Shown: positions 1-13,922 of the stretch, one piece after another
Layout of the letters: every line of letters begins with the position of its first letter
Numbering within the stretch: the stretch's first letter is position 1
Origin: Nitrospirota bacterium
GTDB lineage: Bacteria; Nitrospirota; Thermodesulfovibrionia; Thermodesulfovibrionales; JdFR-88
Direction: 5' to 3'
NCBI GenBank assembly: GCA_021789735.1
Contig: JAJYJB010000066.1
Coordinates: forward strand, 1 to 14,342
DNA: 14,342 nucleotides
Position numbers and translations under genes: made by a program
The notes under the pieces: generated by a model
What the model was told of the DNA's origin: nothing
Seen by the model: only the letters and a program-made list of their open reading frames with translations
Databases searched by the model: none

Positions 1-510
1 TTCCTGATAGCGGAGGCGCTGAAGGGGCTTTTTTCGGTCATCAAGGACCCGGACTTCCTGATGGTGGTTAAGATATATCTTTATTCCTGCGTCCGGCGCG
101 CGGAGCTGGTGAGGTTGGGTGCCGAGGATATTGACCTGGTAAACAATAAGATCTATGTGCGCAAGACCAAAACGCACAAGGACAGGATCGTGCCCATCTG
201 CACGGAACTCCGTCCCATCCTGGAGGGATTTTTAAAATTCGATATAGGGCCTCTCTTTCCTCAATGGACGAGTCCTGACACGCTTTCGAGGCTCTTCCAT
301 GAATATGCGGAGAAAGCCGGAATAAAACACACCCTTAAGGACCTTAGGCACACGTTCGGCAGCTACCTCCGGATGGAGGGTGCCGACCTGGACGTTATCC
401 GGAAGCTCATGGGACACACGGACATAAAGACAACGCTCATCTATGCCAAGGTTGGCGACGAGACGCTGCAACAGGCTGTGAACAAGCTGAGCTTCGCGGG
501 AAAGTCTTGA
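1..510 (+). CDS. Tyrosine recombinase/integrase, C-terminal catalytic part (5' end outside window)
   Basis: The frame is open from base 1, so the N-terminal DNA-binding part lies off the left edge; 169 codons are visible. Seen: box I SCVRRAEL with the catalytic Arg at 94-96; a beta-hairpin Lys in KTKTHKDRIVPI; box II KDLRHTFGS with Arg at 346-348; LMGHTDIKTT with His at 415-417; and the nucleophilic Tyr at 442-444 in TLIYAKV. The order R-K-x-R-H-Y is that of phage and genomic-island integrases, which cut and rejoin DNA through a 3'-phosphotyrosine. The first residue of the HxxR motif is Lys (337-339) rather than the usual His, a substitution that may be tolerated. The gene ends about 70 bases from a broken tRNA-Gln gene, which fits an element integrase placed next to its attachment site. 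XerC/D is less likely because of this context. The family call is secure; the exact element is unknown. Confidence 0.93.
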   Translation, partial: FLIAEALKGLFSVIKDPDFLMVVKIYLYSCVRRAELVRLGAEDIDLVNNKIYVRKTKTHKDRIVPICTELRPILEGFLKFDIGPLFPQWTSPDTLSRLFHEYAEKAGIKHTLKDLRHTFGSYLRMEGADLDVIRKLMGHTDIKTTLIYAKVGDETLQQAVNKLSFAGKS

Positions 511-577
511 TGGGTTTGTCAGCAGATTGTCTTCAGAGGGAGTCTAACCGCTTGATTTTATTAGGAGAGCAATTCTA

Positions 578-614
578 TCCAGAGTCTGCCGTCTTGCCCT
601 TAGACGACTCCCCA
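578..614 (-). pseudogene. tRNA-Gln(CTG) 5' half, truncated after the anticodon loop
   Basis: Read on the minus strand from 614: acceptor strand TGGGGAG, then TC (positions 8-9 as in glutamine tRNAs), a D arm with GTC/GAC closing TAAGGGCAA, one linker base, 5' anticodon stem GCAGA, and loop CTCTGGA with anticodon CTG at 582-580. The next bases, TAGAA, cannot pair with GCAGA. No T arm of GGTTCGAATCC type and no CTCCCCA acceptor strand follow. The match to the tRNA-Gln consensus therefore stops at the end of the anticodon loop, where many tyrosine recombinases cut tRNA attachment sites. An upstream promoter remains (668-695). Together with the neighbouring integrase this suggests an attachment-site half whose partner 3' half lies at the far end of an element, or was lost. 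It is unlikely to make a functional tRNA. Confidence 0.75.
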
Positions 615-667
615 AAAAACCAACAGTTTCCGCTACCGCGGAAAGCGGCCTGAAAGAGCAATATTAT

Positions 668-695
668 ATTATCAAAAACCCCGAAAGACCGTCAA
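668..695 (-). promoter_or_regulatory. Sigma-70-like promoter of the truncated tRNA-Gln
   Basis: On the minus strand there is TTGACG (695-690), a 16-base spacer, and GATAAT (673-668). Initiation would fall near 661, about 47 bases before the tRNA 5' end at 614. Near-consensus hexamers upstream of only half a tRNA imply the gene was once whole. Confidence 0.6.
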
Positions 696-720
696 TCTCC
701 ACCCGGCTGCGGTTTTTTTT
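674..720 (+). terminator. Possible rho-independent terminator after the integrase
   Basis: AAAAACC at 674-680 can pair with GGTTTTT at 711-717, and a T8 tract (713-720) follows a GC-rich stretch, CCGGCTGCGG. The inner stem is weak, so this is tentative. Because of the A/T flanks it could act in both directions. Confidence 0.3.
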
Positions 721-757
721 CGTGGAGCGGATGCCGCCCCCCGACCTTTGGCCCGTA

Positions 758-785
758 TTGAAAATACCCTGAAGGGTGATAGCAT
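758..785 (+). promoter_or_regulatory. Promoter of the phosphoribosyltransferase/hydrolase gene, with a dyad in the spacer
   Basis: TTGAAA (758-763) is followed by 16 bases and TAGCAT (780-785), preceded by an extended -10 TGA (777-779). Transcription would start near 792, giving a leader of about 59 bases with an AAAGGGGG ribosome-binding site (836-842) before the ATG at 851. ACCCT-GA-AGGGT (766-777) is a perfect dyad inside the promoter spacer and could be an operator. Confidence 0.5.
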
Positions 786-850
786 TTTAACGGGGCAAAG
801 CAAAAAACAAGCGCCTCAGCGGGTCCCAATTTTCAAAGGGGGTTTCCTTT

Positions 851-2158
851 ATGTTCAGAGACAGGGCTGACGCCGGGGCCAAACTGGCCGCAGCGCTTAA
901 AAACTACAAGGGGCAAAATGTCATAGTCCTCGGGTTGCCAAGAGGAGGCGTTGTGACGGGCGCCCAGGTGGCCCAGTACCTGAACGCCCCTCTGGATGTG
1001 CTCATCGTAAGGAAGCTTGGCGTGCCATGGCAGCCGGAGCTTGCCATGGGGGCCATTTCGGAAACTGGCGCCGTCGTCTTTAACGAGGAGGTCATCCAGG
1101 CGTATCGGGTCCCCCGCGCGGACATAGACAAGGAAATAGCCCTGCAGAAAAAAGAGATAAACCGGCGCATCGCGCTGTACAGGAAGGGCAGGGGCCTCAG
1201 GCCGCTCAAGGGGGCAACCTGCGTTCTGGTCGATGACGGGCTTGCGACCGGGGCCACAATGAAGGCGGCTATTGCCGCCCTGAAGCAGGAGGGCCTTCGA
1301 AAGCTCGTGGCTGCGGTCCCTGTCGCGCCGCCGGAGACGGCAAGGGAGATAAGCCGCATGGTTGATGATTTCGTCTGCCTGGAGCTGGACCCTTTTTTTG
1401 CCGCCCTGGGCAGCTACTACTATAAGTTCGATCAGGTGCCGGATGAAGATGTCGTGGAGCTGCTTGAGGAGTCGGCGAGAGCCGTGCCGGAGCCCGGCGA
1501 CCCCGTGACGAAATCCTCCGATGTCCGGATACCCGCAGGCGGAAACGCGGTCCTGGATGGAGACCTCCAGATGCCGCGCGGCGCGCGCTCCGTCGTGATA
1601 TTCGCCCATGGCAGCGGGAGCAGCCGCTTTAGCCCCCGGAACAGATTTGTGGCAAGCGTTTTGAGGGAGGCGGGCTTCGGCACTCTGCTTTTTGACCTTC
1701 TTACGGCCGGGGAGGAAAACGTCTACGACACCCGCTTCGATATAGACCTGCTAGCAGGGCGGCTGGCCGCGGCCACCAGGTGGCTGGTTGAAAACCCTCC
1801 CGTCAAGGAGGGGCTTCGGATAGGCTACCTCGGCGCAAGCACGGGGGCGGCGGCAGCCCTTCAGGCGGCGGCCCTGCTCGATGGGCGGGTCCCCATAGGG
1901 GCGATCGTCTCAAGGGGCGGAAGGCCGGACCTGGCGTCTGAAGACGCCCTCGGCAAGGTCACCTGCCCGACACTTTTTATCGTCGGAGAGTTCGACCGGC
2001 TGGTTATGGAGCTTAACAGGAGGGCTTTTGAGTCGCTGGGAGCAGGCGAGAAGAAGATAGAGGTTGTCCCGGGGGCCACTCACCTTTTCGAAGAGCCCGG
2101 CGCGCTTGAGCAGGTGGCCAGACTGGCAAGCGCATGGTTCGAAAAACACATCACTTGA
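851..2158 (+). CDS. Phosphoribosyltransferase-alpha/beta hydrolase fusion protein
   Basis: 435 residues in two domains. Residues 1 to about 215 form a type I phosphoribosyltransferase fold: LGLPRGGV near 28-34 and the PRPP-binding loop VLVDDGLATGATM at 125-137, with two acidic residues and a TGAT turn. Residues about 225-435 form a dienelactone-hydrolase-like alpha/beta hydrolase: oxyanion strand FAHGSGSS (251-258), nucleophile elbow GASTG with Ser330, acid Asp382 in VGEFD, and His411 in GATHLFEE. Both active sites look intact. Fusions of this kind are known in other bacteria, but their substrates are not settled and I assign none. The ATG at 851 follows an AAAGGGGG ribosome-binding site at 836-842. 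The gene is monocistronic, with its own promoter, and ends by overlapping the stop of the opposing cytochrome gene by 8 bases (2151-2158). Confidence 0.9.
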   Translation: MFRDRADAGAKLAAALKNYKGQNVIVLGLPRGGVVTGAQVAQYLNAPLDVLIVRKLGVPWQPELAMGAISETGAVVFNEEVIQAYRVPRADIDKEIALQKKEINRRIALYRKGRGLRPLKGATCVLVDDGLATGATMKAAIAALKQEGLRKLVAAVPVAPPETAREISRMVDDFVCLELDPFFAALGSYYYKFDQVPDEDVVELLEESARAVPEPGDPVTKSSDVRIPAGGNAVLDGDLQMPRGARSVVIFAHGSGSSRFSPRNRFVASVLREAGFGTLLFDLLTAGEENVYDTRFDIDLLAGRLAAATRWLVENPPVKEGLRIGYLGASTGAAAALQAAALLDGRVPIGAIVSRGGRPDLASEDALGKVTCPTLFIVGEFDRLVMELNRRAFESLGAGEKKIEVVPGATHLFEEPGALEQVARLASAWFEKHIT

Positions 2159-4061
2159 ACCCGGCAATGTATTTTTCAGCCTCCCCGGCGTTATGGAAGA
2201 CCAGTTCCTTGAGACGCCTGAACCTGATCAGCTTCTCCTTGCCAAAATCCTTTGACCTTGCCTGCATGGCCGCAAGTCTTTTTTGGGCCCTGGCCCAGGT
2301 GCGCAGCGCCCTTTCGTAACGGGCCGGGTTTGTCTTTATTAAGAAGTCTCCGGGGGCCTTCCATTTGTTTTTCATATAGACCCATGAAGCAAAGTCGGCA
2401 AGCTTGGCGCCCTGAAGGGGCACGATGGGGGTCGTGTTCCTCAGGCCCACGATGCGTATGCCGTTTTTGCCGGCCACTATCTCGTGCGTCCCCTTGAAGG
2501 GCAGCGCCCCCTGGTCCTGCTCGAACTTCCAGTGCGACGTTGATACCTGCACGCCTCCCCGTCCGTGGCAGGAAGCGCAGCTTCTGGCCTTGCCGTAAGG
2601 GTGCGAGGCCTGCTCTATCTCAAGCCACAGGAGCTGCTTGTTGTCCGCGGGCAGGCCGCTCACGGTACCCACTATGTAATACGCGTCCTTCGTCTGGCCG
2701 TCCGGCCAGCGGAACATTATCCTCGTGGAAGGCGGAACGTTCTTTTTGAAGTTCCCAAGGGCGTGGGGCCACACCTTCACGGGCATCCATGTTCCCTTCT
2801 GGTCCCTCATTATTATGGGGGGGCGTTGAATGCCGTAATAGAGGGAATACTTGACGAAAGGATTGGGTCTGCCTGCCACTTCGCCAGGCCCCCAGATCGT
2901 AAGCTGATAACCCCTCAACTGGCTCAAATGGCAGGCCGCGCAGTTCAGGTCCCTGTGGACGCTTTTTGCCAATGCCGCCTGGGCCTCCAGGTGGCAGTCC
3001 TGGCAGGTGGCTTTGCGCATCATGTCGCCCATCCCCTTGGGGCCCATCTGGTGGCAGTCCACGCACTGCAGGCCCTTTGTGTAATGCACATCAGGCTTCT
3101 CGCCGGTCGGGATGGAATAGTCACCCCCGATGTATGTCTCTCCCCTCCTGCTCTGCATCGCGCCCGGGTGGCATATGCTTGTCCCCCTCCCGTCGCCCGC
3201 GCAGTTCAGGGCCGGGGGCTTCCTATAAAAATTATGGACCCCAAGCGTAGCGCTCGGGGCGTAATGGCAGTCCAGGCAGCCCGGATGGCATACGTTACAG
3301 AAACGCTGCTTGGCCCTGGCCTGCTGGTGGGTGAAGGGCACGTCCATTTCCGCGGCTATCCTTTTTGTGTTCGAATAATCGAAGCCCGTCTTCCTGAGCC
3401 TCTTTTGCGGAGGGACGTCCGCAAACGAAGGGCCGCAGTTGTGGGGGCCATAAGGATAAAGCCAGCTCCTCATCGTGCGCTGCCTGTAGTCCGCCCCCAT
3501 GTCGGAGGTCTCAAACTGTTTTAACTCCTCCGGGTGGCAGCCGGGCTTCCCGCACGTCTTTTTTACGATCTCCGGGTCAAAGTCCAGCGTGTCCGGGTTC
3601 CTGTCCTGCCAAAGAAGGTTCCTGACCTCGGGATTAACATACAGCTTCCCGTCCGCGGACCTCACGTGCGGCAGCAGGTCCCTTATCCCGAACGGGCCGG
3701 TGGGAACGAGAGGGCCTGGAAGCACGTCTCTTCTGTTCAGGACTTTTCCGTCGTAGCCTATGAACAGGGCCTTGAGCATGCCCTTGTGGGCGTCTTTCAT
3801 GTTGTTTGCCCTTCCGTTTCCAAGGTGGCAGTCCCGGCAGGTTATGTTTGTATGATGGCTTTGCTTCTCGACCATCTCCTGGGTGATGTAGAACTCGGGA
3901 TAGCCCAGCTTCGCGAGTTCTTTCCGGTTGGAGTGGCATTTTATGCAGCCCTCGCTCGTGTTCTGCCACGCCTTGTAGCCGGACGCCGCGAGGACAACGA
4001 AAAACTGGAGCGCCAGAAAGACAAGGAGCGCGTTTTTCATCCTGCCCCCTGTCTTTTTCAT
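2151..4061 (-). CDS. Multiheme c-type cytochrome (8 CXXCH motifs, one CX4CH, one possible CX9CH)
   Basis: 636 residues from the chosen start. A hydrophobic segment at about 11-28 is a membrane anchor or signal peptide, so the rest should be periplasmic. Canonical heme motifs have their first Cys at residues 39, 75, 255, 262, 333, 353, 374 and 495. C170-GKPG-C175-H176 is a CX4CH site, and C287 to C297-H298 has CX9CH spacing, which may or may not bind heme. Cys209, next to His208, is outside any motif. The first two motifs and the sequence between them recall NapC/NirT-type quinol-linked cytochromes, so an electron-transfer or reductase role is likely; the substrate is unknown. ExtKL-like multiheme (seleno)cytochromes are one family to compare. 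An ATG at 4163 is also in frame but lies inside mutS2; 4061 follows an AGG element and precedes the hydrophobic segment, and ATG 4040 is possible. The gene starts 31 bases after mutS2. Confidence 0.88.
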   Translation of the reverse strand: MKKTGGRMKNALLVFLALQFFVVLAASGYKAWQNTSEGCIKCHSNRKELAKLGYPEFYITQEMVEKQSHHTNITCRDCHLGNGRANNMKDAHKGMLKALFIGYDGKVLNRRDVLPGPLVPTGPFGIRDLLPHVRSADGKLYVNPEVRNLLWQDRNPDTLDFDPEIVKKTCGKPGCHPEELKQFETSDMGADYRQRTMRSWLYPYGPHNCGPSFADVPPQKRLRKTGFDYSNTKRIAAEMDVPFTHQQARAKQRFCNVCHPGCLDCHYAPSATLGVHNFYRKPPALNCAGDGRGTSICHPGAMQSRRGETYIGGDYSIPTGEKPDVHYTKGLQCVDCHQMGPKGMGDMMRKATCQDCHLEAQAALAKSVHRDLNCAACHLSQLRGYQLTIWGPGEVAGRPNPFVKYSLYYGIQRPPIIMRDQKGTWMPVKVWPHALGNFKKNVPPSTRIMFRWPDGQTKDAYYIVGTVSGLPADNKQLLWLEIEQASHPYGKARSCASCHGRGGVQVSTSHWKFEQDQGALPFKGTHEIVAGKNGIRIVGLRNTTPIVPLQGAKLADFASWVYMKNKWKAPGDFLIKTNPARYERALRTWARAQKRLAAMQARSKDFGKEKLIRFRRLKELVFHNAGEAEKYIAGFK

Positions 4062-4092
4062 CTTCCCGCCTTTTTTCTCGTAAACGTTTTTA

Positions 4093-6501
4093 TCACTTGA
4101 TCGTGATGACCGTAACGCCTTCTCTCCCCTCGGAGGGCGCGCCGCCCCTGAACCTTTCCACAAGCGGATGCCCCTTGATGTGCTCCCGCACCGCCCTCAT
4201 AAGCTGGCCCGTCCCCATCCCGTGTATCACGGTGACCTCTTTAAGCCCCATTATGGAGGCGTCGTTCAAGAAAGGCTCCAGTCTCGATAAGGCCTCATCC
4301 ACCCTCGTGCCAATAAGGTTCAGGCTTGCCGCAGCGGATCCATTTTCTTCTTTTTCGATGTTCACCCCTCCGGCGGAGGGCCTCTCCTTTCCGGCCCCGG
4401 GCGAGACCCCGCTTATATCGGAGAGCGGCACGTCCGCATACATCCCGCCGGTCTTGATCCTTATGCGCCCCTGCCTCTCGTCCACGCGGATGACCATCCC
4501 CGCACTGGACCCGAAGGACCTTCTGACATGGACGATGTCCCCTTCCCTTATGTCCGGGGCGGAAAAGGTTTTTTGTGTTCCCCCCTTTTTCCCTTCCCGG
4601 CCCACGGAATCGAATTCATTCTGGAGCCTTTGGCGCTCAAGGTTGAGCTTTTTAAGGGTTTCCCTGGCCAAGGCCTTTTTCTCCCTCTTTGCCTCTTCGA
4701 TCCATGCGTTTATCTGCCGCCTGGCATCTGAGACAATGCGGCCTGCCTGCTCGTAGGCCGCGGCCAGCGCCTCCTTGCGCTCCGTCTCCTCTTTTTCCCT
4801 TGCCTCCTCAAAACGCCTCTGCCTTTCATCGAGGGCGGTCTTCTGCCGCTCCAGCTCCTCAAGAGATTCGTCATAGAGGACGCTCTTTTCCTTCATCTGG
4901 CTGATGAGATCCTGGAGCTCAAGCTGGTTTGTGCCAAGGAGTCTTTTGGCCTCCTCCACGATGCCCTCCGGCATGCCCAGCCTGAGGGCGGTTTCGAGCG
5001 CCCGGGACTGTCCGGGCTCCCCCACCTTCAGCCTGTAGAGCGGCGTGAGCGTCCTGGGGGAAAACTCCATGGAGGCATTTACGATCCCGTCCGTGCGCTG
5101 CACGAAACCCACTATGTCCATGAGGTGGGTGGTGGCAAGCACCAGCGCCCCTTTCTCCTTCAGGTCCTTGAGTATGGCGCAGGCAAGGGCCGCCCCCTGT
5201 CCGGGGTCCGTGCCGGTGCCAAGCTCATCCATCAATATGATCATCCTGGAGTCCGCTCTTTTTATGATCTTCGAAAGGTTCGACACATGGGCGGAGAAGG
5301 TGGAGAGGCTTTCATCTATGGCCTGCTCGTCCCCAATGTCAGCGATGACTTCCTCCACGAGGGGCAGGGTGGTGGAAGGCCCGGCCGGCACTGGTATGCC
5401 GGAGAGGGCCATGATTATGAGGAGCCCGGCCGTTTTTATGGCTATGGTCTTTCCCCCGGCGTTAGGGCCGGTTATGACCATCGCCCTGTCTGCCCCGCCA
5501 AGCTCCAGTTCGAGCGGTACGACTTCCCTCGCGCGCTCTTTTTCTCTGCTTTCAAGCAGCAGCAGAAGCGGGTGCTTCGCGCCCTTGAGCCTGATAACGG
5601 AGGATGTGTTTATCTCCGGGGTGTTCAGGCTGAAGGCATCGGAGAAAAGCGCTATCGCCGAAAGGACATCAAGCGAGACAAGGACGTCGTACTCGGCAAG
5701 TATGCCGCTTGCGCAGGCGCGCACCTCCCGGCAGATGTCCCTTAATATGCGTATCTCCTCCGCCCTGGCGTCCGACTCCAGGTTCTCAAGCTCGTTTGTC
5801 GGGCCGATTATCTCAAGGGGCTCTATGAAGGCGGTCTCTCCACTTCTTGATACGTCGTGCGCAACGCCCGGCACCTGTCCCTTCGAGTCCATCCTTACGG
5901 GCAGCACCCACCTGCCCGACCGCCTGGAGATGAAGTCGTCCTGCAGGAACACGGCGGTCCTTTCGTCCCTCACCATGGCCTCCAGTTTCCTGCTTATCCT
6001 GGCCTGAAGGCCGCGCATTTTAGCCCTGAGCTCACGGAGCGCCGGGGAGGCGGTGTCTTTTATCTTGCCCTCGTGGTCTATGGAGTCCTCTATGCGTTTT
6101 GCTATCTCCGGGAACCCGGTAAGTCCGCCCGCAAGCTCTTTAAGATGCGGCAGGGGATCCGAACGCCTCTCCTTATTTATAAGCAGGGAGGCGGCCCGGG
6201 CCATATTGAGCACGTGGCAGAGGGCAAGAAGCTCCGGCGGCTCGGCGGCGGAGCCCTGAGGGCCCAGGCGCTCCACCGTTTTCGTTATGTCGCTGAATCC
6301 CGATATCTCAAGCGGCTCGGCAAGCGCCCTCAGCCTTCTTATCTCTTCCACCAGCCCGAAGCGCCGCTCTATCTCCAGCCTGTCGTCAAGGGGGCATATC
6401 CTGTGCGCCCTTTCCGCGGAGGCCTCGCTGTGGGTGTGTCCGGATATCGCGGTCAGTATCCTGTCAAACTCAAGTGTCCTTAAGGTTTCCTTTTTGATCA
6501 T
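4093..6501 (-). CDS. mutS2: MutS2 family ATPase with C-terminal Smr domain
   Basis: 802 residues, close to the usual MutS2 length. It lacks the mismatch-binding N-terminal domain of MutS. Walker A GPNAGGKT at 345-352, Walker B ILMDE at 422-426 in the MutS signature DELGTGTDP, and ATTHL at 456-460 define the ATPase. A charged coiled coil runs from about 535 to 630, a small KOW-like segment from about 650 to 700, and the Smr domain from about 727 to 802 with HGMGTG at 760-765. The Smr LDLRG-type motif reads LNLIG, so Asp is replaced by Asn, which may mean weak or no nuclease activity. Known roles in the family are anti-recombination and, in Bacillus, sensing and splitting of collided ribosomes. 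The ATG at 6501 follows GAAGGA and overlaps the stop of the GGQ gene (ATGA), so the pair is translationally coupled. A longer start at 6702 would lie inside that gene. Confidence 0.95.
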   Translation of the reverse strand: MIKKETLRTLEFDRILTAISGHTHSEASAERAHRICPLDDRLEIERRFGLVEEIRRLRALAEPLEISGFSDITKTVERLGPQGSAAEPPELLALCHVLNMARAASLLINKERRSDPLPHLKELAGGLTGFPEIAKRIEDSIDHEGKIKDTASPALRELRAKMRGLQARISRKLEAMVRDERTAVFLQDDFISRRSGRWVLPVRMDSKGQVPGVAHDVSRSGETAFIEPLEIIGPTNELENLESDARAEEIRILRDICREVRACASGILAEYDVLVSLDVLSAIALFSDAFSLNTPEINTSSVIRLKGAKHPLLLLLESREKERAREVVPLELELGGADRAMVITGPNAGGKTIAIKTAGLLIIMALSGIPVPAGPSTTLPLVEEVIADIGDEQAIDESLSTFSAHVSNLSKIIKRADSRMIILMDELGTGTDPGQGAALACAILKDLKEKGALVLATTHLMDIVGFVQRTDGIVNASMEFSPRTLTPLYRLKVGEPGQSRALETALRLGMPEGIVEEAKRLLGTNQLELQDLISQMKEKSVLYDESLEELERQKTALDERQRRFEEAREKEETERKEALAAAYEQAGRIVSDARRQINAWIEEAKREKKALARETLKKLNLERQRLQNEFDSVGREGKKGGTQKTFSAPDIREGDIVHVRRSFGSSAGMVIRVDERQGRIRIKTGGMYADVPLSDISGVSPGAGKERPSAGGVNIEKEENGSAAASLNLIGTRVDEALSRLEPFLNDASIMGLKEVTVIHGMGTGQLMRAVREHIKGHPLVERFRGGAPSEGREGVTVITIK

Positions 6502-6887
6502 TCTTCCTTCTGTGAATATTTTTCCTTCGATTTTCTTTTTCTTCTGGCTTTCTGCCTTCTTATTTTGTCCGCTTTTGCGCAGATGACGCCCGGGGCGGAA
6601 AGGGCGGTTTCGGCACCTCCGGCGGCAAGCGCCTCTATCCTTTCCGCCAGCTCCCGCCTGGCCAGGAACCTGTTTATGGATTGGCTGCGCTCCCGCATGC
6701 ATTTTATCTCTATCCCGGTTGGCAGGTGTTTAAGGTAAACGCACGAAGACGTCTTGTTGAGCTTCTGTCCTCCATGGCCCGATGAGCGGACGAACTTTTC
6801 AACGATGTCTTTTTCCAGGATGCGGAGGGCCTCCATCTTCAGCCTCAGAAGCCTGTTTTTCTCATCGCTCACGGCAAAATCGGGCAT
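6498..6887 (-). CDS. GGQ-motif release-factor-like peptidyl-tRNA hydrolase (codon-independent)
   Basis: 129 residues. RSSGHGGQKLNKTSS at 34-48 contains the GGQ tripeptide (39-41) that drives peptidyl-tRNA hydrolysis in class I release factors. LPTGIEIKCMRERSQSINRF (55-74) is the conserved second part of the RF-1 domain. There is no codon-recognition domain, and the last 25 residues are rich in Lys and Arg (RRQKARRKRKSKEK), as in ArfB and mtRF-R/C12orf65-type rescue factors, where a basic tail contacts rRNA or the mRNA channel. It should release nascent chains from stalled ribosomes or split large subunits; which of the two cannot be told. It has its own extended -10 promoter ending 5 bases before the ATG, and an in-frame TGA at 6893-6891 rules out an earlier start. 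Its stop overlaps the mutS2 start (ATGA). Confidence 0.9.
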   Translation of the reverse strand: MPDFAVSDEKNRLLRLKMEALRILEKDIVEKFVRSSGHGGQKLNKTSSCVYLKHLPTGIEIKCMRERSQSINRFLARRELAERIEALAAGGAETALSAPGVICAKADKIRRQKARRKRKSKEKYSQKEE

Positions 6888-6892
6888 GTTTC

Positions 6893-6901
6893 ATTATAAC
6901 A
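6893..6901 (-). promoter_or_regulatory. Extended -10 promoter, probably giving a leaderless GGQ-mutS2 mRNA
   Basis: On the minus strand TGT-TATAAT (6901-6893) is a consensus extended -10 box. It is followed by GAAAC and then the ATG at 6887. Normal initiation, about 7 bases after the box, would put the first base of the mRNA on or next to the A of the start codon. There is no Shine-Dalgarno sequence. I see no good -35 box, which an extended -10 can dispense with. Confidence 0.65.
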
Positions 6902-6939
6902 GGCGGGCAATATGCAAGGTGGGCAAGCGGGGGCCGCCT

Positions 6940-7572
6940 TCAGTTTTTCCGTCGCCTGCGGATATGGGGGTAAACATAAATGGCGATCAGCGCTATGACG
7001 ATGAAGGCGAACACGAAGGCCCCCGCCCTGCCGAGCCATTTCTCTATGAGCCTCAGATTGCGGCCGAAGAAATAGCCAAGCAGGGTGAAAGAGAGGGTCC
7101 AGCTGATGCATCCGGCCAGGTTGTAGATGAAAAACCTGGCGTACCTCATTTTCCCAAGGCCTGCGCTGAAGGGGATTACGGAGCGTATGAAGCTTATGAA
7201 CCTGCCGATGACGACCGCCGCCCCGCCGTGCCTGTTGAAATATGCGTCCACGTGGTCCAGGTGCTCTCTTTTAAGCAGGAGGAACCGGTTGTGCTCCTGG
7301 AAATACCTCCTTCCGAGCTTTTTGCCCGCAAGGTATCCCGCGTTATCGCCCGCTATCGCCCCAAGGACCACGGCCATGAGGGTATATTTGAGCAGCAGGT
7401 ATCTGCGCGCCGACAGAAAGCCCACGAAAACGACGAATGTCTCGCCCGGCAGGACGAAGCCGGTGAAGGCCGCGCTTTCGAAAAAGGTGGCAAGGAAAAT
7501 GATGACGTAGGCGAGGCCGCCAAGATGTTTTATGTGCCCGAGAAGGCCCTTTAAGAAAGAAAGGGTATCCAC
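6940..7572 (-). CDS. DedA/VTT-domain integral membrane protein
   Basis: 210 residues. LATFFESAAFTGFVLPGETF (27-46) is the family's re-entrant E..PGE motif. GAIAGDNAGYLAGKKLG (71-87) and VIGRFISFIRSVIPFSAG (121-138) are the conserved G-D-x-x-G-Y and F-x-R-x-x-P blocks. Hydrophobic helices follow at about 152-168 and 183-201, and the tail RRRRKN is basic, as expected at the cytoplasmic face. DedA proteins flip undecaprenyl phosphate or other phospholipids and support envelope homeostasis and proton-motive force; the lipid handled here is unknown. The only possible start is GTG 7572: an in-frame TAA lies just two codons upstream. The AAGGGG there is too close to the GTG to be a normal ribosome-binding site. 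The gene begins 24 bases after the groES-like stop. Confidence 0.92.
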   Translation of the reverse strand: MDTLSFLKGLLGHIKHLGGLAYVIIFLATFFESAAFTGFVLPGETFVVFVGFLSARRYLLLKYTLMAVVLGAIAGDNAGYLAGKKLGRRYFQEHNRFLLLKREHLDHVDAYFNRHGGAAVVIGRFISFIRSVIPFSAGLGKMRYARFFIYNLAGCISWTLSFTLLGYFFGRNLRLIEKWLGRAGAFVFAFIVIALIAIYVYPHIRRRRKN

Positions 7573-7578
7573 CCCTTA

Positions 7579-7584
7579 ATTGTA
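7579..7584 (-). promoter_or_regulatory. Possible -10 box (TACAAT) just upstream of the DedA start
   Basis: TACAAT at 7584-7579 lies 6 bases before GTG 7572, the same geometry as at the three clearer leaderless starts nearby, but without the TGN extension. The gene may instead be read through from the groES-like gene. Confidence 0.3.
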
Positions 7585-7596
7585 GTACCGCGGCCG

Positions 7597-7962
7597 CTAA
7601 CTCTCCAGTATTTCGGTCCTGACGAGGGCAAGTATCGAGGCGTGCGGGACTATGACGTATTTTTTTCCCTCGAATTCTATCTCCACCGCGTCGTTTTTAA
7701 GGAAGATGGCGTAATCGCCCTCCATCGCCTCCAGGGGGAAATACCTGACGGCCTGTTTTCTTTCAACCCACGGCTCGTCCGGGGCGGAGGAGTCCGGTAT
7801 GGGGTAGCCTGGGCCTTTCTTCATGACCTTGCCGCCCTGCACCTTGTCCTTGTCCTTGATGTTCGGGGGCAGGTAAAGGCCGGCAGCGCTCTTGTCCGAG
7901 CCCTCGTCGGGCTCTATAAGGACTCTGTCGCCTACGATCAGGAGCGTCTTTTTGGCCTCCAC
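7597..7962 (-). CDS. GroES/Cpn10-like protein with an internal insertion
   Basis: 121 residues against about 95 for typical GroES. GDRVLIEPDEGSDKSAAGLYLPP at 11-33 matches the first strand and mobile-loop region of Cpn10, and GGKVMKKGPG (43-52) the central strand. GDYAIFLKNDAVEIEFEGKKYVIVPHASILALV (82-114) matches the C-terminal half. Between them, at about 53-81, sits an insertion of roughly 28 residues including DEPWVERKQAVRYFPLE. Cpn10 caps the GroEL chamber during folding. No groEL lies nearby, and the usual groESL arrangement is absent, so this is probably a second, divergent GroES rather than the housekeeping one. It starts with GTG at 7962 behind an extended -10 box, with no ribosome-binding site. 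It heads the minus-strand cluster and is divergent from the RDD-mre operon across 100 bases. Confidence 0.85.
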   Translation of the reverse strand: MEAKKTLLIVGDRVLIEPDEGSDKSAAGLYLPPNIKDKDKVQGGKVMKKGPGYPIPDSSAPDEPWVERKQAVRYFPLEAMEGDYAIFLKNDAVEIEFEGKKYVIVPHASILALVRTEILES

Positions 7963-7967
7963 AGTGT

Positions 7968-7976
7968 ATAATAACA
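7968..7976 (-). promoter_or_regulatory. Extended -10 promoter of the GroES-like gene (leaderless)
   Basis: On the minus strand TGT-TATTAT (7976-7968) is followed by ACACT and GTG 7962. No Shine-Dalgarno precedes the start; the GGAGG here is inside the gene. The geometry is the same as at the GGQ and RDD genes. Confidence 0.6.
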
Positions 7977-8026
7977 GATGGGCTTTTCCCCGTGTGTAGA
8001 AGACCCTTTAAAGTTCCAGTTAGAGC

Positions 8027-8056
8027 TTGAAAAAGTGAAAAATCGAATGTTAAAAT
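8027..8056 (+). promoter_or_regulatory. Promoter of the RDD-mreBCD-mrdA-rodA operon (leaderless first gene)
   Basis: TTGAAA (8027-8032), an 18-base spacer ending in TGT (8048-8050), and TAAAAT (8051-8056). The seventh base after the -10 box is 8063, the A of the first ATG. There is no Shine-Dalgarno between box and start, and an in-frame TAA (8051-8053) excludes an earlier start. This is the best-supported promoter in the window. Confidence 0.7.
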
Positions 8057-8062
8057 CTTCCG

Positions 8063-8479
8063 ATGCGCGCGGCTAATCAAGCCAGTCTTCTATCAAGGGT
8101 TGTGGCCAGGGCCGTTGATGTGATAATTATCCTTGCGGCCGCGGAGATCCTACCAAAGGCCGGCTTTCTGGCGGGCGTGGGTTATATGTTTATAGGCGAT
8201 GGCATCGCGGGCGGGGGAAGCCTTGGCAAGAAGCTCCTGGGACTCGCCGTGCTGGATGACGGAGGGGCGGCCTGTCGTGCGCGGGAATCCATACTGCGCA
8301 ATCTCACCCTGGGCACCGGGGTTGTCCTTTGGAAGGTCCCTCTCATAGGATGGCTGCTTGCCGCGGCCATCTTCATTTTGGAATTCATAGTCCTCCTTGG
8401 AAGCCGGGAGGGCAGGAGAATAGGGGACGAAATAGCTAAAACGCGGGTCGTCGAGGCCCGGCTCAAGGAGGCAGTTTGA
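8063..8479 (+). CDS. RDD-family small membrane protein, first gene of the mre operon
   Basis: 138 residues. [13 protein letters not shown] (12-24) gives the Arg-Asp pair of the RDD domain in the first helix. [19 protein letters not shown] (50-68) is the conserved G-x-x-L-G-K/R-x-x-x-G-L segment, and SILRNL (76-81), [18 protein letters not shown] (95-112) and [13 protein letters not shown] (118-130), with the second Asp, complete it. Two or three membrane helices are likely. The function of RDD proteins is poorly known (transport has been proposed for some). The start ATG 8063 is set by the promoter geometry and an upstream in-frame stop. Its stop overlaps the mreB start (TGATG, 8477-8481), so its translation is linked to that of MreB. 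RDD genes are not a standard part of mre operons. Confidence 0.85.
8465..8471 (+). promoter_or_regulatory. Shine-Dalgarno AAGGAGG that fixes the mreB start
   Basis: A full AAGGAGG lies 7 bases before ATG 8479 and inside the end of the RDD gene. It favours ATG 8479 over the adjacent TTG at 8476. Confidence 0.8.
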
Positions 8480-9510
8480 TGTTTTTCAGCAAGATAATGG
8501 GTTGGTTTTCAAACGACCTTGCGATAGACCTTGGCACGGCCAACACCCTTGTCTATATGAAGGGCAAGGGCATCGTGTGCAATGAGCCTTCCGTGGTTGT
8601 TGTAAGGAAGGACACCAAAAAAGTCGTGGCGGTCGGCGCGGAAGCCAAGCGGATGCTGGGCAAGACCCCCGCGAACATATACGCCATCCGGCCGATGAAG
8701 GAGGGCGTTATAGCCGATTTCGACGCAACCGGCGAGATGCTCAAGTACTTCATAGCGAAGGTGCACAACAGGCGCAGCTTCGTTTCCCCGAGGGTCATTA
8801 TAGGGGTGCCCTCCGGAATAACCCAGGTGGAGCAAAGGGCGGTGAAGGATGCGGCGCAGGCATCCGGGGCGAGGGAGGTTTACCTTATAGAGGAGCCAAT
8901 GGCCGCGGCCCTGGGCGTGGGCCTTCCGGTGGGTGAGCCCTACGGCAACATGATAGTGGACGTGGGCGGCGGCACGACGGACATAGCTGTCATCTCCCTG
9001 GACGGGATAGTGATAAGCAAGGTGGCCAGGGTCGGCGGCGACAAGATGGACGAGGCGATCATGGCCTATATAAAGCGCAGGTATAACCTGATGATCGGGG
9101 ACCGCACCTCCGAGACGATAAAGGTGGAGATGGGCTCCGCGTGCAAGTTCGACCACCGCGAGCCGAAGACGATGGAGATAAAGGGCCGGGACCTCGTATC
9201 GGGCATCCCAAAGACCTTTACCATAAACGAGGACGAGATAATGGAGGCGCTGCAGGAGCCGGTCAATATAATTATCGAGACCATAAAGGTGGCGCTGGAA
9301 AACACGCCTCCGGAGCTGGCGGCGGACATAGTGGACAGGGGGATAGTGCTTGCAGGCGGCGGGGCGCTCCTTAGCGGCCTTGACATCCTTATCAGGGAAT
9401 CCACCGGCCTGCCGGTGAGCGTCGCCGAAGACCCGCTTACCGCCGTGGTCAAAGGCGTCGGCAAGATGCTGGACGAACTGGAACTGCTTAAAAAGATAGC
9501 CATCAACTAG
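8479..9510 (+). CDS. mreB: Rod-shape determining actin-like protein MreB
   Basis: 343 residues, typical of the family. The N-terminus [11 protein letters not shown] is an amphipathic membrane-binding helix. DLGTANT (17-23) is the phosphate-1 motif, VDVGGGTTD (160-168) phosphate-2, and [11 protein letters not shown] (291-301) the adenosine motif. MreB polymerises with ATP on the inner face of the cytoplasmic membrane and guides lateral cell-wall synthesis together with MreC, MreD, RodA and PBP2, all encoded downstream. The gene overlaps the RDD stop by one base and ends two bases before mreC. Confidence 0.98.
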
Positions 9511-9512
9511 AA

Positions 9513-10310
9513 ATGCCGGGTAGGAGATTTCTGCCCCTGTTCCTGCTGTTCCTGGTAGTTGGGGCGCTCATGACCTACCAGGCGGACCCGGCGGTGGAAA
9601 AACCTGTAAAACCCCTGAAGCAGCTGAACGGGGTCGTCTACGGCGCACTGGAGGCGGCGCACTCCGCGTATTCGTGGGGGGCAGGCCAGCTCACCCGCCT
9701 GACAAGCAGCAAAAAAGACATCCGCATACGGCAGCTAGAGCAGCAGGTCGCGGGCCTTAAAAGGCAGCTCGCCGGCACGTACGCCCTCTCTCTGGAGAAC
9801 GCCAGGCTCAAGGCGCTGCTTGGCCTCAAGGACCACACCCCCAAATACGTGGCCACGGCAAACGTGATCTCCAGGGGGACTTCCAGGTGGCAAAACACCT
9901 TTGTCATAGACGCCGGCAGCCGCCAGGGGATAGAAAAAAACATGATCGCCATAAGCCCTGAAGGGCTTGCCGGGAAGGTCATCGGCGTGCAGAAGGAATA
10001 CAGTTGGGTGCTTCTGATAAACGACATCCGGTTTGCCGCCGCGGTGAGGATAGAGCCCCTGGGGCAGGAGGCCATTTTCGCCGGTAACGGCGGGCTGGAC
10101 CACTGCGACCTCAAGTACGTCACAAGTGATAAAAAAATCCAAAAAGGAGACATGCTTACGACCTCCGGCCTGGACGGGCTTTTCCCTGCGGGCATCAGGG
10201 TGGGCTATGTGTCCGGTATCTCAAGTGGAGACGGGTTCTTCAAAGAGGTGCAGGTGACCCCTTATACAGACACGGCCAGGCTTGAGCAGGTGACGATAAT
10301 AAGGAAATGA
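9513..10310 (+). CDS. mreC: Rod-shape determining protein MreC
   Basis: 265 residues. A single membrane helix at about 6-22 is followed by a periplasmic coiled coil (about 68-105) and the beta-rich MreC core. The core includes NVISRGTSRWQNTFVIDAGS (117-136) and the conserved block TTSGLDGLFPAGIRVG near 216-231. MreC binds PBP2 and helps activate the RodA-PBP2 synthase. The ATG comes two bases after the mreB stop with no clear ribosome-binding site, so translation probably depends on coupling. Its stop overlaps the mreD start (ATGA). Confidence 0.96.
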   Translation: MPGRRFLPLFLLFLVVGALMTYQADPAVEKPVKPLKQLNGVVYGALEAAHSAYSWGAGQLTRLTSSKKDIRIRQLEQQVAGLKRQLAGTYALSLENARLKALLGLKDHTPKYVATANVISRGTSRWQNTFVIDAGSRQGIEKNMIAISPEGLAGKVIGVQKEYSWVLLINDIRFAAAVRIEPLGQEAIFAGNGGLDHCDLKYVTSDKKIQKGDMLTTSGLDGLFPAGIRVGYVSGISSGDGFFKEVQVTPYTDTARLEQVTIIRK

Positions 10311-10780
10311 AGCGCTTTTTCTCCCTGCGCATCCTTCTTTTTACGGCGCTGGCCTTCCTTCTGGACATGAGACTTTCCATCCTTGGGTTCAGGCCGGACC
10401 TGGTCAGCTTCATGGCGTACTGGTTTGGCTACAGCCGTTCTTCGGGCAAGGGGATGCTCTACGGCGCCGCGGTGGGGGCCGTTGAGGACGGCCTTTATTC
10501 GGGAGTGCTTGGGCCGGGGATGCTTGCAAAAGGGGTGATCGGTTTTTTTGCATCCTTTCTTTCAAAGGGGTTTTTCAGGTGGACGCCCCTGCTTGGTTTT
10601 TTCGGGGCGCTGACGCTCACCCTGGCGGGCGGTTTTGTTGAGCTTGCCGTCCTGTCCGTCTTCAGCCGGGGCGCGGAGGGGTTTTCAATGGCGGGGTTTT
10701 TGACGCTTATTTTTCAGGCGCTTTTAAACGGAGTGCTTGGCATCTTTCTGAGGCCGGAAATAAGAACAAGTGAGTCATGA
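10307..10780 (+). CDS. mreD: Rod-shape determining membrane protein MreD
   Basis: 157 residues, almost all hydrophobic, with about five predicted helices. FRPDLVSF near 28-35 and the G-A-V-E-D-G-L-Y-S-G segment near 56-65 are family hallmarks. MreD is an integral membrane part of the elongasome that works with MreC. It starts within the mreC stop (ATGA at 10307-10310), and its end overlaps the mrdA start by 11 bases. Confidence 0.92.
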   Translation: MKRFFSLRILLFTALAFLLDMRLSILGFRPDLVSFMAYWFGYSRSSGKGMLYGAAVGAVEDGLYSGVLGPGMLAKGVIGFFASFLSKGFFRWTPLLGFFGALTLTLAGGFVELAVLSVFSRGAEGFSMAGFLTLIFQALLNGVLGIFLRPEIRTSES

Positions 10781-12656
10781 CAGAAACGCGGCAAGAGTGG
10801 CCGCGGTTGTAATCATACTGGCTTCCTTTGTGGCTGTGGTCAGGCTCTGGCAGCTCCAGGTGATAGAGGGGCGCGACATGAGGAAGGCTTCCGAGGAAAA
10901 CAGGTTCAAGGTGATAAACATATACCCGCCGCGCGGGATCATATACGACAGAAACGGCATCCCGCTTGTTAAAAACGCGCCGTCTTTCAATGTTTCCGTG
11001 ACGCCCCACATGCTGAAAAATGGCGATGTGGAGCAGATCGCGGCGCTCCTGTCGCTTTCCCCGCAGGACATAGAAAAGAAGATACAGGCGGCGAGGGGCT
11101 CTTTGGAGCCGGTGACCCTCGAGGAGGGGCTGGACTTTGATGAGCTTGCCCGGGTGGAGGCCAGGCTTTCGGATTTCCCGGCGCTCCACGTGGACGTGAA
11201 CATAGTGAGGGACTACATCTGCAAGGACGTTGCCTCGCAGCTTATAGGCTATATCGGAAGGATCAACGCCCAGGAAGAGGAGGACCCGGAATACAGCGAT
11301 GTCCCCAAGGGGGAACCTGTGGGCCAATGGGGCATCGAGCGCCTCTATGACCGGCAGCTCAGGGGTGTGCCGGGCAAGAAGCTGATAGAAGTGGACGCGA
11401 CCGGCAGGGAGATAAAGGTGGTGGGCGAGATTCCCCCGAAAAAGGGAAAGGACATCACGCTGGCCCTGGACATAAACGTGCAGATGGCGGCGGAGAAGAA
11501 ATTTTCCAGCAAGGCGGGGGCGTTCGTGGCGCTGGACCCCAACACGGGCGAGATACTTGCATTCATGAGCAAACCGTCCTTCGATCCCAATGCCTTCGTC
11601 AACGGCATAAGCGCGGCGGACTGGAAAAAGCTGGCCGACGACCCGGAGCATCCCATGCTGGACCGCGTCTTCCAGAGCCAGTACCCGCCGGGCTCCACCT
11701 TCAAGATAATAACCGCCATAGCGGCCCTGGAGTCCGGCGCCATCAAGCCCACGGACAAACTGAACGGCCCGGGCACATTCGTTCTTGGAGGGCACGTCTT
11801 CCACGACTGGAAAAAGGGAGGGCATGGCATGCTGGATATCAAACATGCGATAATCCAGTCCTGCGACACTTTTTTCTACCAGGTCGGCCTTAAAACGGGG
11901 ATAGACGAGATAGCCAAATACGCCAGGGCCTTCGGCCTGGGGCGCAGTGTGAAGCTTGGCCTTGGTTACGTGGCGTCGGGGCTGGTGCCGGACACCACGT
12001 GGAAGGAGCGCGTTTACAAGTGCCCCTGGTATCCGGGGGACACGGTGAGCGCATCCATCGGGCAGAGCTATGTGCTTGTAACTCCGCTTCAGATGGCAAG
12101 GCTTGTGGGCTCGGTGGGCACGGGCGGCAAGTTCATGCCCCGCCTGAGCTTTTTAAAGTTAAAGCCTGGCCAGAAGCCGGTGCTAGACCCGGTGGGGCTG
12201 CCTGTAAGCAGCGCAACGATAAACCTCGTCCGTGCCGCCCTTCAGGGGGTAGTGAACGAGCCGGACGGCACGGCGTACCGGTCCAGGTCCAGCCTCGTGC
12301 AGTTTTCAGGCAAGACCGGCACGGCGCAGACGGTAGACGGCGGCAAGCGCTACGACTCCTGGTTCGTGGGCTACGCGCCTTCAGACAATCCGGAGATAGC
12401 CCTCGCGGTGATGGCCGAACAGACGCCTGAGGAAGGCGCTTCGGCCGCCGCCCCGGTGGCAAAGGCGGCCATAGAGGCCTACATAAAAGAGAAGGAGGGC
12501 AAACTTGCCCCCGGCGCGCTTCTTAACGGTGTCTCTCCTTCGATCGCAAACGCGGCAAATGCGGCGGCAAAGATCGCAAACAGGCCGCTCGCAAAGATCG
12601 CCGGCCCGGTAAACGGGCTTGGCGAAAACGCGGCGAGGGCAGGAGGGATGCGCTGA
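10770..12656 (+). CDS. mrdA: Penicillin-binding protein 2 (elongasome transpeptidase)
   Basis: 628 residues. A membrane helix at about 10-25 anchors the protein. PPRGIIYDRNG (53-63) begins the PBP dimerisation domain. The transpeptidase domain has S309-T-F-K312 (acyl-enzyme Ser), S364-C-D and K515-T-G, the three active-site motifs in their PBP2 form. It crosslinks peptidoglycan during side-wall growth as partner of RodA. The GTG start at 10770 overlaps the end of mreD; ATG 10777 is out of frame. Past about residue 575 there is a tail of some 50 residues rich in Ala and Asn, with IANAANAAAKIANRPLAKIA at 592-611, which is not part of the catalytic fold and looks like a short degenerate repeat. 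Confidence 0.96.
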   Translation: MSHDRNAARVAAVVIILASFVAVVRLWQLQVIEGRDMRKASEENRFKVINIYPPRGIIYDRNGIPLVKNAPSFNVSVTPHMLKNGDVEQIAALLSLSPQDIEKKIQAARGSLEPVTLEEGLDFDELARVEARLSDFPALHVDVNIVRDYICKDVASQLIGYIGRINAQEEEDPEYSDVPKGEPVGQWGIERLYDRQLRGVPGKKLIEVDATGREIKVVGEIPPKKGKDITLALDINVQMAAEKKFSSKAGAFVALDPNTGEILAFMSKPSFDPNAFVNGISAADWKKLADDPEHPMLDRVFQSQYPPGSTFKIITAIAALESGAIKPTDKLNGPGTFVLGGHVFHDWKKGGHGMLDIKHAIIQSCDTFFYQVGLKTGIDEIAKYARAFGLGRSVKLGLGYVASGLVPDTTWKERVYKCPWYPGDTVSASIGQSYVLVTPLQMARLVGSVGTGGKFMPRLSFLKLKPGQKPVLDPVGLPVSSATINLVRAALQGVVNEPDGTAYRSRSSLVQFSGKTGTAQTVDGGKRYDSWFVGYAPSDNPEIALAVMAEQTPEEGASAAAPVAKAAIEAYIKEKEGKLAPGALLNGVSPSIANAANAAAKIANRPLAKIAGPVNGLGENAARAGGMR

Positions 12657-12658
12657 AA

Positions 12659-13783
12659 ATGCAGATAGACAGGCGGCATGTTCAAAACTTCGACTGGTTG
12701 CTGCTTAGCCTTGTGCTTCTGGCCTCCCTGATAGGGGTGGTGACCATCTTCAGCGCCACGAGGCCCCTGACCGGTTCAGCCCATCATTCCTCTTTTTACA
12801 TAAAGCAGCTTGTCTGGATGTTCATGGGCCTGGTAGCGATGGGTGTTGTCGTGAAGATAGATTACCGCCAGTTTGAAAGGGTGGCCGGGATACTCTATGC
12901 GATAGGAATACTGCTGCTGGTCTTTGTGCTTGGCATCGGCAGGATGGGCCTGGGCGCCCAGAGGTGGATAAGCATCGGAGGCATATCCTTCCAGCCCTCG
13001 GAGGTCTTCAGGCTGGCCTACATTTTAATGCTTGCCAGATACCTGTCCTTCCTGAAGCCGCCCATCGGGGTGAAGGAGTTTTTGAAGATGCTGCCGCTGC
13101 TTGCGCTCCTGCCCTTCGGGCTGCTCGTGAAACAGCCGGACCTTGGCACGGCCACCACCATGGGCCTGGTCTTTCTCTTCCTGTGCTTCGCGAGGGGCAT
13201 GTCAAAGAAGCTCGTCATGGCGCTCCTGATATTCGGACTTGTTTCAGGCCCTTTTCTTTTTGACATAATCTGGCACGGGTTTTTGAAAGGCTACCAGAGG
13301 GACCGTATAGTGGCTTTCATGGACCCGCAGGCGGACCCCGCCGGCATCGGGTACAACATAACCCAGTCCAAAATAGCCATAGGCTCCGGCATGGTCCTGG
13401 GCAAGGGTTACCTGAAAGGCACGCAGGGGCCCCTGCGGTTCCTGCCCGAAAACCACACGGACTTCATCTTTTCCGGGTTTGCGGAGGAGTGGGGGTTTGC
13501 CGGCTGCCTGGCGCTGATTGCCATATACCTTGCCATCCTGCTCAGGGCGCTGGATACGGCGAGGCATGCGAAGGACGATTTCGGCGCTCTGCTGGCCCTG
13601 GGGCTTACGTTCATGTTCGCTTTCTACTTCTTTTTCAACATAGGGATGGCCATGGGAATGCTGCCTGTGGTGGGCATACCTCTGCCGTTCATGAGCTATG
13701 GAGGCACGGCGGTGTTTTCAAACTACATAGCGGTGGGCCTGCTTATAAACATAAGGCTGAGGCGCTTCGAACTCTTTTATTAA
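12659..13783 (+). CDS. rodA: RodA, SEDS-family peptidoglycan glycosyltransferase
   Basis: 374 residues, about ten membrane helices. GAQRWISIGGISFQPSE (99-115), KQPDLGTA (158-165), PENHTDFIFSGFAEEWG (263-279, with the key Asp of the HTDF motif) and GIPLPFMSYGGTA (339-351) are SEDS signatures. RodA polymerises lipid II into glycan strands and works with PBP2, encoded immediately upstream. The ATG lies two bases after the mrdA stop; AGGAGG at 12641-12646 is rather distant (12 bases). It is the last gene of the operon; no clear hairpin terminator is visible before the tRNA. RodA rather than FtsW is inferred from the mre operon context. Confidence 0.96.
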   Translation: MQIDRRHVQNFDWLLLSLVLLASLIGVVTIFSATRPLTGSAHHSSFYIKQLVWMFMGLVAMGVVVKIDYRQFERVAGILYAIGILLLVFVLGIGRMGLGAQRWISIGGISFQPSEVFRLAYILMLARYLSFLKPPIGVKEFLKMLPLLALLPFGLLVKQPDLGTATTMGLVFLFLCFARGMSKKLVMALLIFGLVSGPFLFDIIWHGFLKGYQRDRIVAFMDPQADPAGIGYNITQSKIAIGSGMVLGKGYLKGTQGPLRFLPENHTDFIFSGFAEEWGFAGCLALIAIYLAILLRALDTARHAKDDFGALLALGLTFMFAFYFFFNIGMAMGMLPVVGIPLPFMSYGGTAVFSNYIAVGLLINIRLRRFELFY

Positions 13784-13798
13784 AGGGGCGTTTTTGGG

Positions 13799-13804
13799 TA
13801 TAAT
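13799..13804 (+). promoter_or_regulatory. -10 box likely serving tRNA-Met
   Basis: A perfect TATAAT lies 44 bases before the tRNA. The -35 region (TTTATT near 13776) is poor. Initiation would be near 13811, leaving a pre-tRNA leader of about 38 bases. Confidence 0.45.
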
Positions 13805-13848
13805 ACGGCTTCGGGGTTTTTTGATTTGCTGCTGGTTTGCCCGACCAA

Positions 13849-13922
13849 GGCGGTGTAGCTCAGACGGTTAGAGCATGCGGCTCATATCCGCAGTGTCCGG
13901 GGTTCGATTCCCTGCACCGCCA
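13849..13922 (+). tRNA. tRNA-Met(CAT), elongator type
   Basis: 74 bases with a complete cloverleaf: acceptor GGCGGTG/CACCGCC, D arm GCTC...GAGC, anticodon stem TGCGG/CCGCA around loop CTCATAT, variable GTGTC, T arm CGGGG-TTCGATT-CCCTG, discriminator A. The CAT anticodon could be Met or lysidine-modified Ile; the overall sequence matches elongator tRNA-Met, and the perfectly paired acceptor argues against an initiator. CCA is not encoded. Confidence 0.93.

Follow-up and report, generated by a model that had tools for sequence, protein, structure and literature searches.

Bacterial ribosome-associated quality control (RQC) is described in one review as running via RqcH and RqcP and not through a release factor (PMC8786322). 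In Bacillus subtilis the splitting of ribosomes by MutS2 has been demonstrated (PMC10897456), and in mitochondria the GGQ-motif factor mtRF-R (also C12orf65 or MTRFR) is reported to act with its S4-domain partner MTRES1 on split large subunits, its release activity on 70S or 55S ribosomes being undetected in vitro (PMC8786322; PMC8874680, PMC8012679); the same review presents the splitter that works ahead of mtRF-R as unclear (PMC8786322). We analyzed a 14,342-nucleotide stretch of a Nitrospirota genome (contig JAJYJB010000066.1 of assembly GCA_021789735.1, positions 1 to 14,342; hereafter the window), in which a GGQ-only, release-factor-like gene of the mtRF-R/C12orf65 type (6498..6887, minus strand) is joined to mutS2 (4093..6501, minus strand) by a four-nucleotide ATGA overlap between the stop codon of the former and the start codon of the latter (6498..6501, minus strand). 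We propose, with a rough probability of 0.52, that the two products carry out consecutive steps of an RqcH-independent RQC route, with MutS2 splitting the stalled ribosome and the GGQ protein releasing the peptide from the 50S subunit. The basis of this proposal is the family resemblance of the GGQ protein, the conserved overlapping operon, the near-absence of RqcH from genomes with the GGQ gene and a MutS2 clade spanning two phyla that tracks that gene; from these we infer the 50S substrate, the order of the steps and the hydrolysis itself.

The GGQ protein has 129 residues and a single Pfam match, to RF-1 (76.1 bits, residues 21-118), with no codon-reading domain. Its catalytic G, G and Q (residues 39-41, codons at 6765..6773, minus strand) are invariant in 52 aligned sequences, and it ends in the last part of a linker and a basic tail (about residues 100-129; 6498..6590, minus strand; family consensus EKIRRQKxKRxKRA), with 13 lysines or arginines against 4 aspartates or glutamates in the last 28 residues. 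The first-pass annotation of this DNA had described just such a small GGQ protein, without a codon-reading domain and with a basic tail, whose stop codon overlaps the mutS2 start as ATGA, and both points are confirmed. In the nearest genome examined (G001), three RF-1 matches were found, namely frames of 360 and 371 residues and the GGQ protein itself. A single-sequence search of the PDB with the GGQ protein returned C12orf65 first (65 bits). Likewise, a family profile built from 52 sequences aligned without gaps to the C12orf65 chain 7a5h_C over profile positions 20-121, the tail included, at 106.6 bits, as against 81.3 for the C12orf65 homolog 2rsm, 63.7 for RF1, 62.8 for PrfH and 47.3 for ArfB, the last over 33 residues only (22-54). 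This gapless alignment also indicates that the family lacks the helical insert between the last core strands, a feature that Burroughs and Aravind report as present in ICT1 and class 1 ArfB and absent from C12orf65 (PMC6514570); the part of the ArfB model that aligns with family members is confined to about positions 4-44, ahead of the insert. In a tree of 142 rows (L014, L118, L119, L160, L080 and six duplicates being left out), the GGQ family stands apart from ArfB and from RF1/2, with the C12orf65 fragment falling on the family side (support 84) but on a very long branch.

As judged from the PDB and profile comparisons, the GGQ protein is a bacterial relative of mtRF-R, which is its closest match among solved GGQ proteins. 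As in mtRF-R (PDB 7A5H), its GGQ domain has neither a codon-reading part nor the ArfB insert, and core and basic tail match gaplessly; unlike mtRF-R, the protein is bacterial, has 129 residues as opposed to a chain of 166, and is encoded with MutS2. With ArfB/YaeJ/ICT1 it shares a single GGQ domain and a basic tail, but it scores below the ArfB cut-off, lacks the insert and has a tail that by eye is unlike theirs, and its family is found alongside ArfB in 8 of the 34 genomes of the Geobacter phylum that bear it. The alternative assignments that we rejected are ArfB (48.6 bits against an NCBIfam cut-off of 100, together with the profile scores), RF1/RF2 (129 residues against about 350, and 56.8-61.6 bits against cut-offs of 370-423) and PrfH or RF-H (56 bits against an NCBIfam cut-off of 166.65), which shares the GGQ domain but is reported to keep a codon-recognition domain and to sit with RtcB (PMC6514570). 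The grouping of C12orf65 with bacterial domains of the ArfB type was already known (PMC6514570). Beside the MutS2-linked GGQ protein, two Geobacteraceae genomes (L097 in G005 and L098 in G006) encode a small GGQ protein of a third kind, with 107-108 residues and the motif GPGGQHRN and by eye without the ArfB insert.

The partner gene encodes a MutS2 of 802 residues (NCBIfam TIGR01069, 752 bits against a cut-off of 400), with MutS_V and Smr domains over the Pfam cut-offs. Both the Walker A motif, GPNAGGKT (residues 345-352; 5446..5469, minus strand), and the HGxG motif are present, the latter as IHGMGTG at residue 759, after the Smr motif LNLIG (residues 727-731; 4309..4323, minus strand). It belongs, therefore, to the same family as the B. 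subtilis MutS2 that works with RqcH/RqcP, sharing its ATPase, Smr domain and HGxG; the systems differ in that RqcH is nearly absent from genomes with the GGQ gene and in that the coupled protein is a GGQ protein and not a tailing factor. An Asp-to-Asn change in LNLIG had been read as fitting a splitting role. The Asn is real but ordinary: in a comparison of 99 MutS2 proteins with that of the window (20 or 19 picked per group), it occurs in 25 of 40 from GGQ-bearing genomes, 19 of 39 from RqcH-bearing genomes and 15 of 20 from genomes lacking both. Being common in all three groups, it was rejected as a sign of a splitting MutS2, and the DxH residues are reported to be often lost in MutS2 (PMC10897456).

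The linkage of the two genes was surveyed in a set of named loci, namely the best 80 of the 84 in which a scan of genome contigs detected a relative of the GGQ protein; the scan patterns were built on the GGQ protein of the window, which biases them to close relatives. Directly downstream and on the same strand, mutS2 is found in 16 of the 80 loci, belonging to three close Nitrospirota, more Nitrospirota, and Geobacteraceae and their kin; the operon is present in the cultured Geobacter argillaceus ATCC BAA-1139 (L047) and Geobacter sp. OR-1 (L028). Seven more adjacent genomes, from draws of 118 genomes of Nitrospirota and 148 of the Geobacter phylum, raise this to 23 distinct genomes, all Nitrospirota or Geobacter relatives, of which 15 keep the exact four-nucleotide overlap and the remaining eight have spacings between -32 and +187 nucleotides (starts being estimated). 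Conserved adjacency had been set beforehand as a test of the idea, and the survey supports it: the pair, with the same overlap, is kept in both groups. The MutS2 proteins of the adjacent genomes, the three closest relatives excepted, are only 42-59% identical to that of the window, and matches to the upstream DedA and GroES genes are confined to those three relatives among the 80 loci; thus, the pair outlasts its surroundings. Of the close same-strand neighbors of the GGQ gene in 79 loci, 15 of the 46 on the downstream side are MutS2, as is 1 of the 30 on the upstream side; the clusters ranking next contain 5 and 4 members. Other recurrent neighbors, judged from one representative each, are creatininase (5), TruD (4), NUDIX (3), a cyclase (3), EamA (2) and glucuronyl esterase (2), and most neighbors that occur once carry no annotation. 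In five more loci (L008, L009, L016, L018 and L023) mutS2 or its end lies upstream of the GGQ gene within the locus, and three further pairs from the draws lie at most 1.4 kilobases apart with mutS2 first (G124, G075 and G267), G124 and G075 containing L009 and L023. With the two draw centers left out, adjacency is seen in 8 of the 57 draw genomes with both genes. This figure and the 16 of 80 loci exceed what chance would give, but they are not to be read as a probability, the cases being kin by descent.

The second line of evidence comes from the distribution of RqcH, counted as a PF05833 match over the Pfam cut-off. For the GGQ gene the threshold was 74 bits in the Nitrospirota draw (G043, with 58.6 bits in a 97-residue frame, being excluded) and 80 bits in the Geobacter-phylum draw, where the next match has 54. 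On this footing, the 118 Nitrospirota genomes include 37 with GGQ, 67 with MutS2, 45 with RqcH and 34 with ArfB, the corresponding figures for the 148 of the Geobacter phylum being 34, 115, 23 and 47. GGQ and RqcH are found together in 5 of the 37 GGQ-bearing Nitrospirota and in none of the 34 of the Geobacter phylum. Genomes with MutS2 divide into RqcH only, GGQ only, both and neither as 35, 23, 5 and 4 in Nitrospirota and as 22, 31, 0 and 62 in the Geobacter phylum (Fisher P values for GGQ versus RqcH of 3e-9 and 8e-4, respectively). Among 79 GGQ-bearing genomes of the named loci (50 plus 29, without L036; 7 are also in the draws), only one has an RqcH match, of 33 bits, in a 248-residue frame that runs to the contig end and lacks the RNA-binding domain, and no PF05833 match was found in G001. 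Of ten PF05833 candidates checked, eight also have the NFACT RNA-binding domain, the others being this 33-bit match and one wrong-frame pick. The five GGQ proteins that coexist with RqcH in Nitrospirota (L365-L369, from G013, G088, G023, G056 and G032) constitute a divergent subfamily with a tail of the form RKRPRP...LKExILExKK: in a split made post hoc, none of them has the RQK tail pattern or the NR[FY]xAR core, whereas of 132 family rows 115 have the former and 112 the latter. A pattern devised ad hoc for ArfB tails matched four of these five but only one of six ArfB or small-GGQ controls, and was dropped. ArfB, on the other hand, goes with RqcH in both draws, with odds ratios of 34.5 and 2.8.

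The third line comes from a FastTree phylogeny of MutS2 from all 182 MutS2-bearing genomes of the two draws. Here, a 38-row clade (support 99) unites 23 Nitrospirota rows with 15 from the Geobacter phylum; 35 of its rows are GGQ-bearing and none has RqcH, as against 24 and 62, respectively, of the other 144 rows. All ten draw genomes in which the genes are directly adjacent fall in a 25-row subclade (support 95). Within the Geobacter phylum, GGQ is found in 12 of 15 rows inside the clade versus 19 of 100 outside it. The three GGQ-less rows are G245, G238 and G172; the contig cuts MutS2 at its upstream end in G245, so that a GGQ gene there would be missed, and at its downstream end in G238, the MutS2 of G172 being whole. 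This pattern fits co-inheritance or co-transfer of both genes.

Several observations weigh against the proposed route. Direct adjacency is seen in only 10 of the 59 draw genomes with both genes, two of these being draw centers, and no fusion of GGQ and MutS2 was found among 349 candidates of about 355-1129 residues retrieved with a GGQ fusion protein from locus L014 (described below) as the query; the first 130 residues of that protein scored E <= 1e-12 in five of the 349, one being L014 itself, none with a MutS domain. As many as 62 of the 115 MutS2-bearing genomes of the Geobacter phylum have neither GGQ nor RqcH, and PF05833 matches below the cut-off, uncounted above, occur in 15 of the 148 genomes of that phylum, including eight with GGQ (G134, G143, G155, G192, G193, G217, G255 and G267) in which they are short stretches of about 19-22 bits. 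GGQ also avoids ArfB in Nitrospirota, with 1 of 37 genomes having both; therefore, lineage effects matter. Moreover, an independent-pairs test on the MutS2 tree finds no significant exclusion between GGQ and RqcH, and simulation of GGQ on that tree gives P values of 0.03 for the Geobacter phylum, 0.085 for all rows and 0.29 for Nitrospirota. When RqcH is simulated instead, the values are 0.006 for the Geobacter phylum and 0.017 for all rows, each resting on fewer than 180 retained simulations, and the overlap of ArfB with GGQ falls below the simulated one over all rows (P 0.043), not so in the Geobacter phylum (0.35). With phylogeny allowed for, the exclusion of RqcH from GGQ-bearing genomes is no more than suggestive. 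Finally, MutS2 is not over the cut-off in 22 of 50 GGQ-bearing genomes of the named loci (all 21 loci with mutS2 in sight and 29 others), nor in 9 of the 37 Nitrospirota and 3 of the 34 Geobacter-phylum genomes with GGQ, most of all these genomes being drafts. Consequently, the GGQ factor cannot need MutS2 everywhere; other ribosome splitters are known, such as HrpA in Escherichia coli (PMC11633108).

In the route that we envisage, MutS2 would recognize collided ribosomes and split the stalled one, in the manner of B. subtilis MutS2, which would leave peptidyl-tRNA on a 50S subunit; the GGQ protein could then enter the 50S A site without codon reading and hydrolyze the peptidyl-tRNA, replacing the alanine tailing by RqcH in GGQ-bearing lineages, with translational coupling providing matched amounts of the two proteins. 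Of the earlier idea that MutS2 splits and the GGQ protein releases, the division of labor is favored by the closeness to mtRF-R and the near-absence of RqcH; a strict two-part module does not hold, given the 22 of 50 genomes without MutS2 and that most pairs are not seen linked. Those same MutS2-less genomes, together with the strongly basic tail, would suit a different role, in which the GGQ protein acts like ArfB by entering an intact 70S ribosome with an empty A site and probing the mRNA channel with its tail, with MutS2 merely co-expressed in stress. The stretch after the GGQ motif is also longer in genomes lacking MutS2 (median 98 residues, with a second basic stretch, versus 82 in MutS2-adjacent genomes), which might suit entry into 70S; the C12orf65 chain, with 93 by hand count, lies between the two, and we did not use tail length as support, since it is confounded with clade. 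The ArfB-like role is, however, at odds with the ArfB model score of less than half the cut-off, its match ending before the ArfB insert, and with the co-residence of ArfB itself, over its cut-off, in the eight Geobacter-phylum genomes mentioned above, and we regard it as unlikely.

Gene order and coupling alone cannot show the order of the steps, and the GGQ protein might instead release the peptide on the stalled 70S ribosome, leaving MutS2 to split a vacant ribosome without a loaded 50S subunit ever arising. This appears quite improbable to us given that RqcH needs the 50S-peptidyl-tRNA complex for alanine tailing, that this tailing is reported to depend on MutS2 in B. subtilis (PMC10897456), and that the relative of the GGQ protein was solved on a split large subunit. 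As for the linkage being simply inherited between unrelated housekeeping genes, with this MutS2 working in DNA recombination, the adjacent GGQ genes do all group within a single clade of their tree, such that the linkage may have arisen once, and most GGQ genes are not seen linked. Nevertheless, the persistence of the linkage at 42-59% MutS2 identity, where DedA and GroES are gone from all but the three closest relatives, and the joint occurrence of MutS2 type and GGQ presence across a phylum boundary make this the slimmest of the prospects.

On a broader and more tentative view, which we hold to be somewhat short of an even bet, the split-then-release route could represent a second, release-factor-based branch of bacterial RQC, in which an mtRF-R-type GGQ protein acts after MutS2, the two having crossed between phyla together as linked genes and serving in place of RqcH. 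If true, bacteria would have their own version of the mitochondrial mtRF-R pathway, and a splitter of the sort still lacking there would be identified; the finding that a bacterial relative of mtRF-R is encoded together with a splitter of a known type is relevant to both of the points of the review cited at the outset. A survey of 15,259 genomes in mBio reports mutS2 in 5,133 and rqcH in 3,727 (PMC11633108), and the GGQ factor is a candidate answer to how 50S subunits are cleared in some genomes with MutS2 and without RqcH. We found no link between MutS2 and a GGQ/C12orf65-type factor in the open-licence literature, subscription papers and preprints lying outside it; one review does mention MutS2, a release factor and GGQ (PMC13159725). 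What we have not seen in print is the operon with MutS2, the MutS2 clade common to both phyla and the pattern of RqcH.

Upstream of the GGQ gene, an extended -10 box, TGTTATAAT (6893..6901, minus strand), lies five nucleotides before the ATG, in the 52-nucleotide gap between dedA and the GGQ gene. These nine bases recur ahead of the GGQ gene in all three closest relatives (L001, L002 and L015), and L002 and L015 keep them though most other upstream bases differ. A dedicated extended -10 promoter had been claimed here. Its box is indeed present, separate from dedA and kept in the three relatives; its action as the promoter of the GGQ gene is a prediction, and the box went unreported in a sigma-70 scan that requires a -35 hexamer, there being no -35 match. 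Transcription starting 6-7 nucleotides past the box would begin at or near the GGQ ATG, and the GGQ-mutS2 message may therefore be leaderless.

The fusion protein of locus L014 (L014:4992-6926) is a single 645-residue frame that combines a GGQ domain with a PIF1-like helicase and a WYL domain; no other protein with this architecture was found in the fusion search, and the frame could be either an assembly read-through or a real fusion. Elsewhere in the window, the GroES-like protein (7597-7962, minus strand; 121 residues) is over the Pfam Cpn10 cut-off but below all 12 NCBIfam GroES models that it matches (best 44.6 against 120), and this divergent co-chaperonin is kept in L001, L002 and L015. 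The gene at 851-2158 (plus strand) codes for a single protein in which an alpha/beta-hydrolase-like part comes after a phosphoribosyltransferase domain, and that at 2151-4064 (minus strand) for a 637-residue cytochrome of the c3/c7 type, with weak matches, below the cut-offs, to the ExtN/ExtO selenite-tellurite reduction cytochromes.

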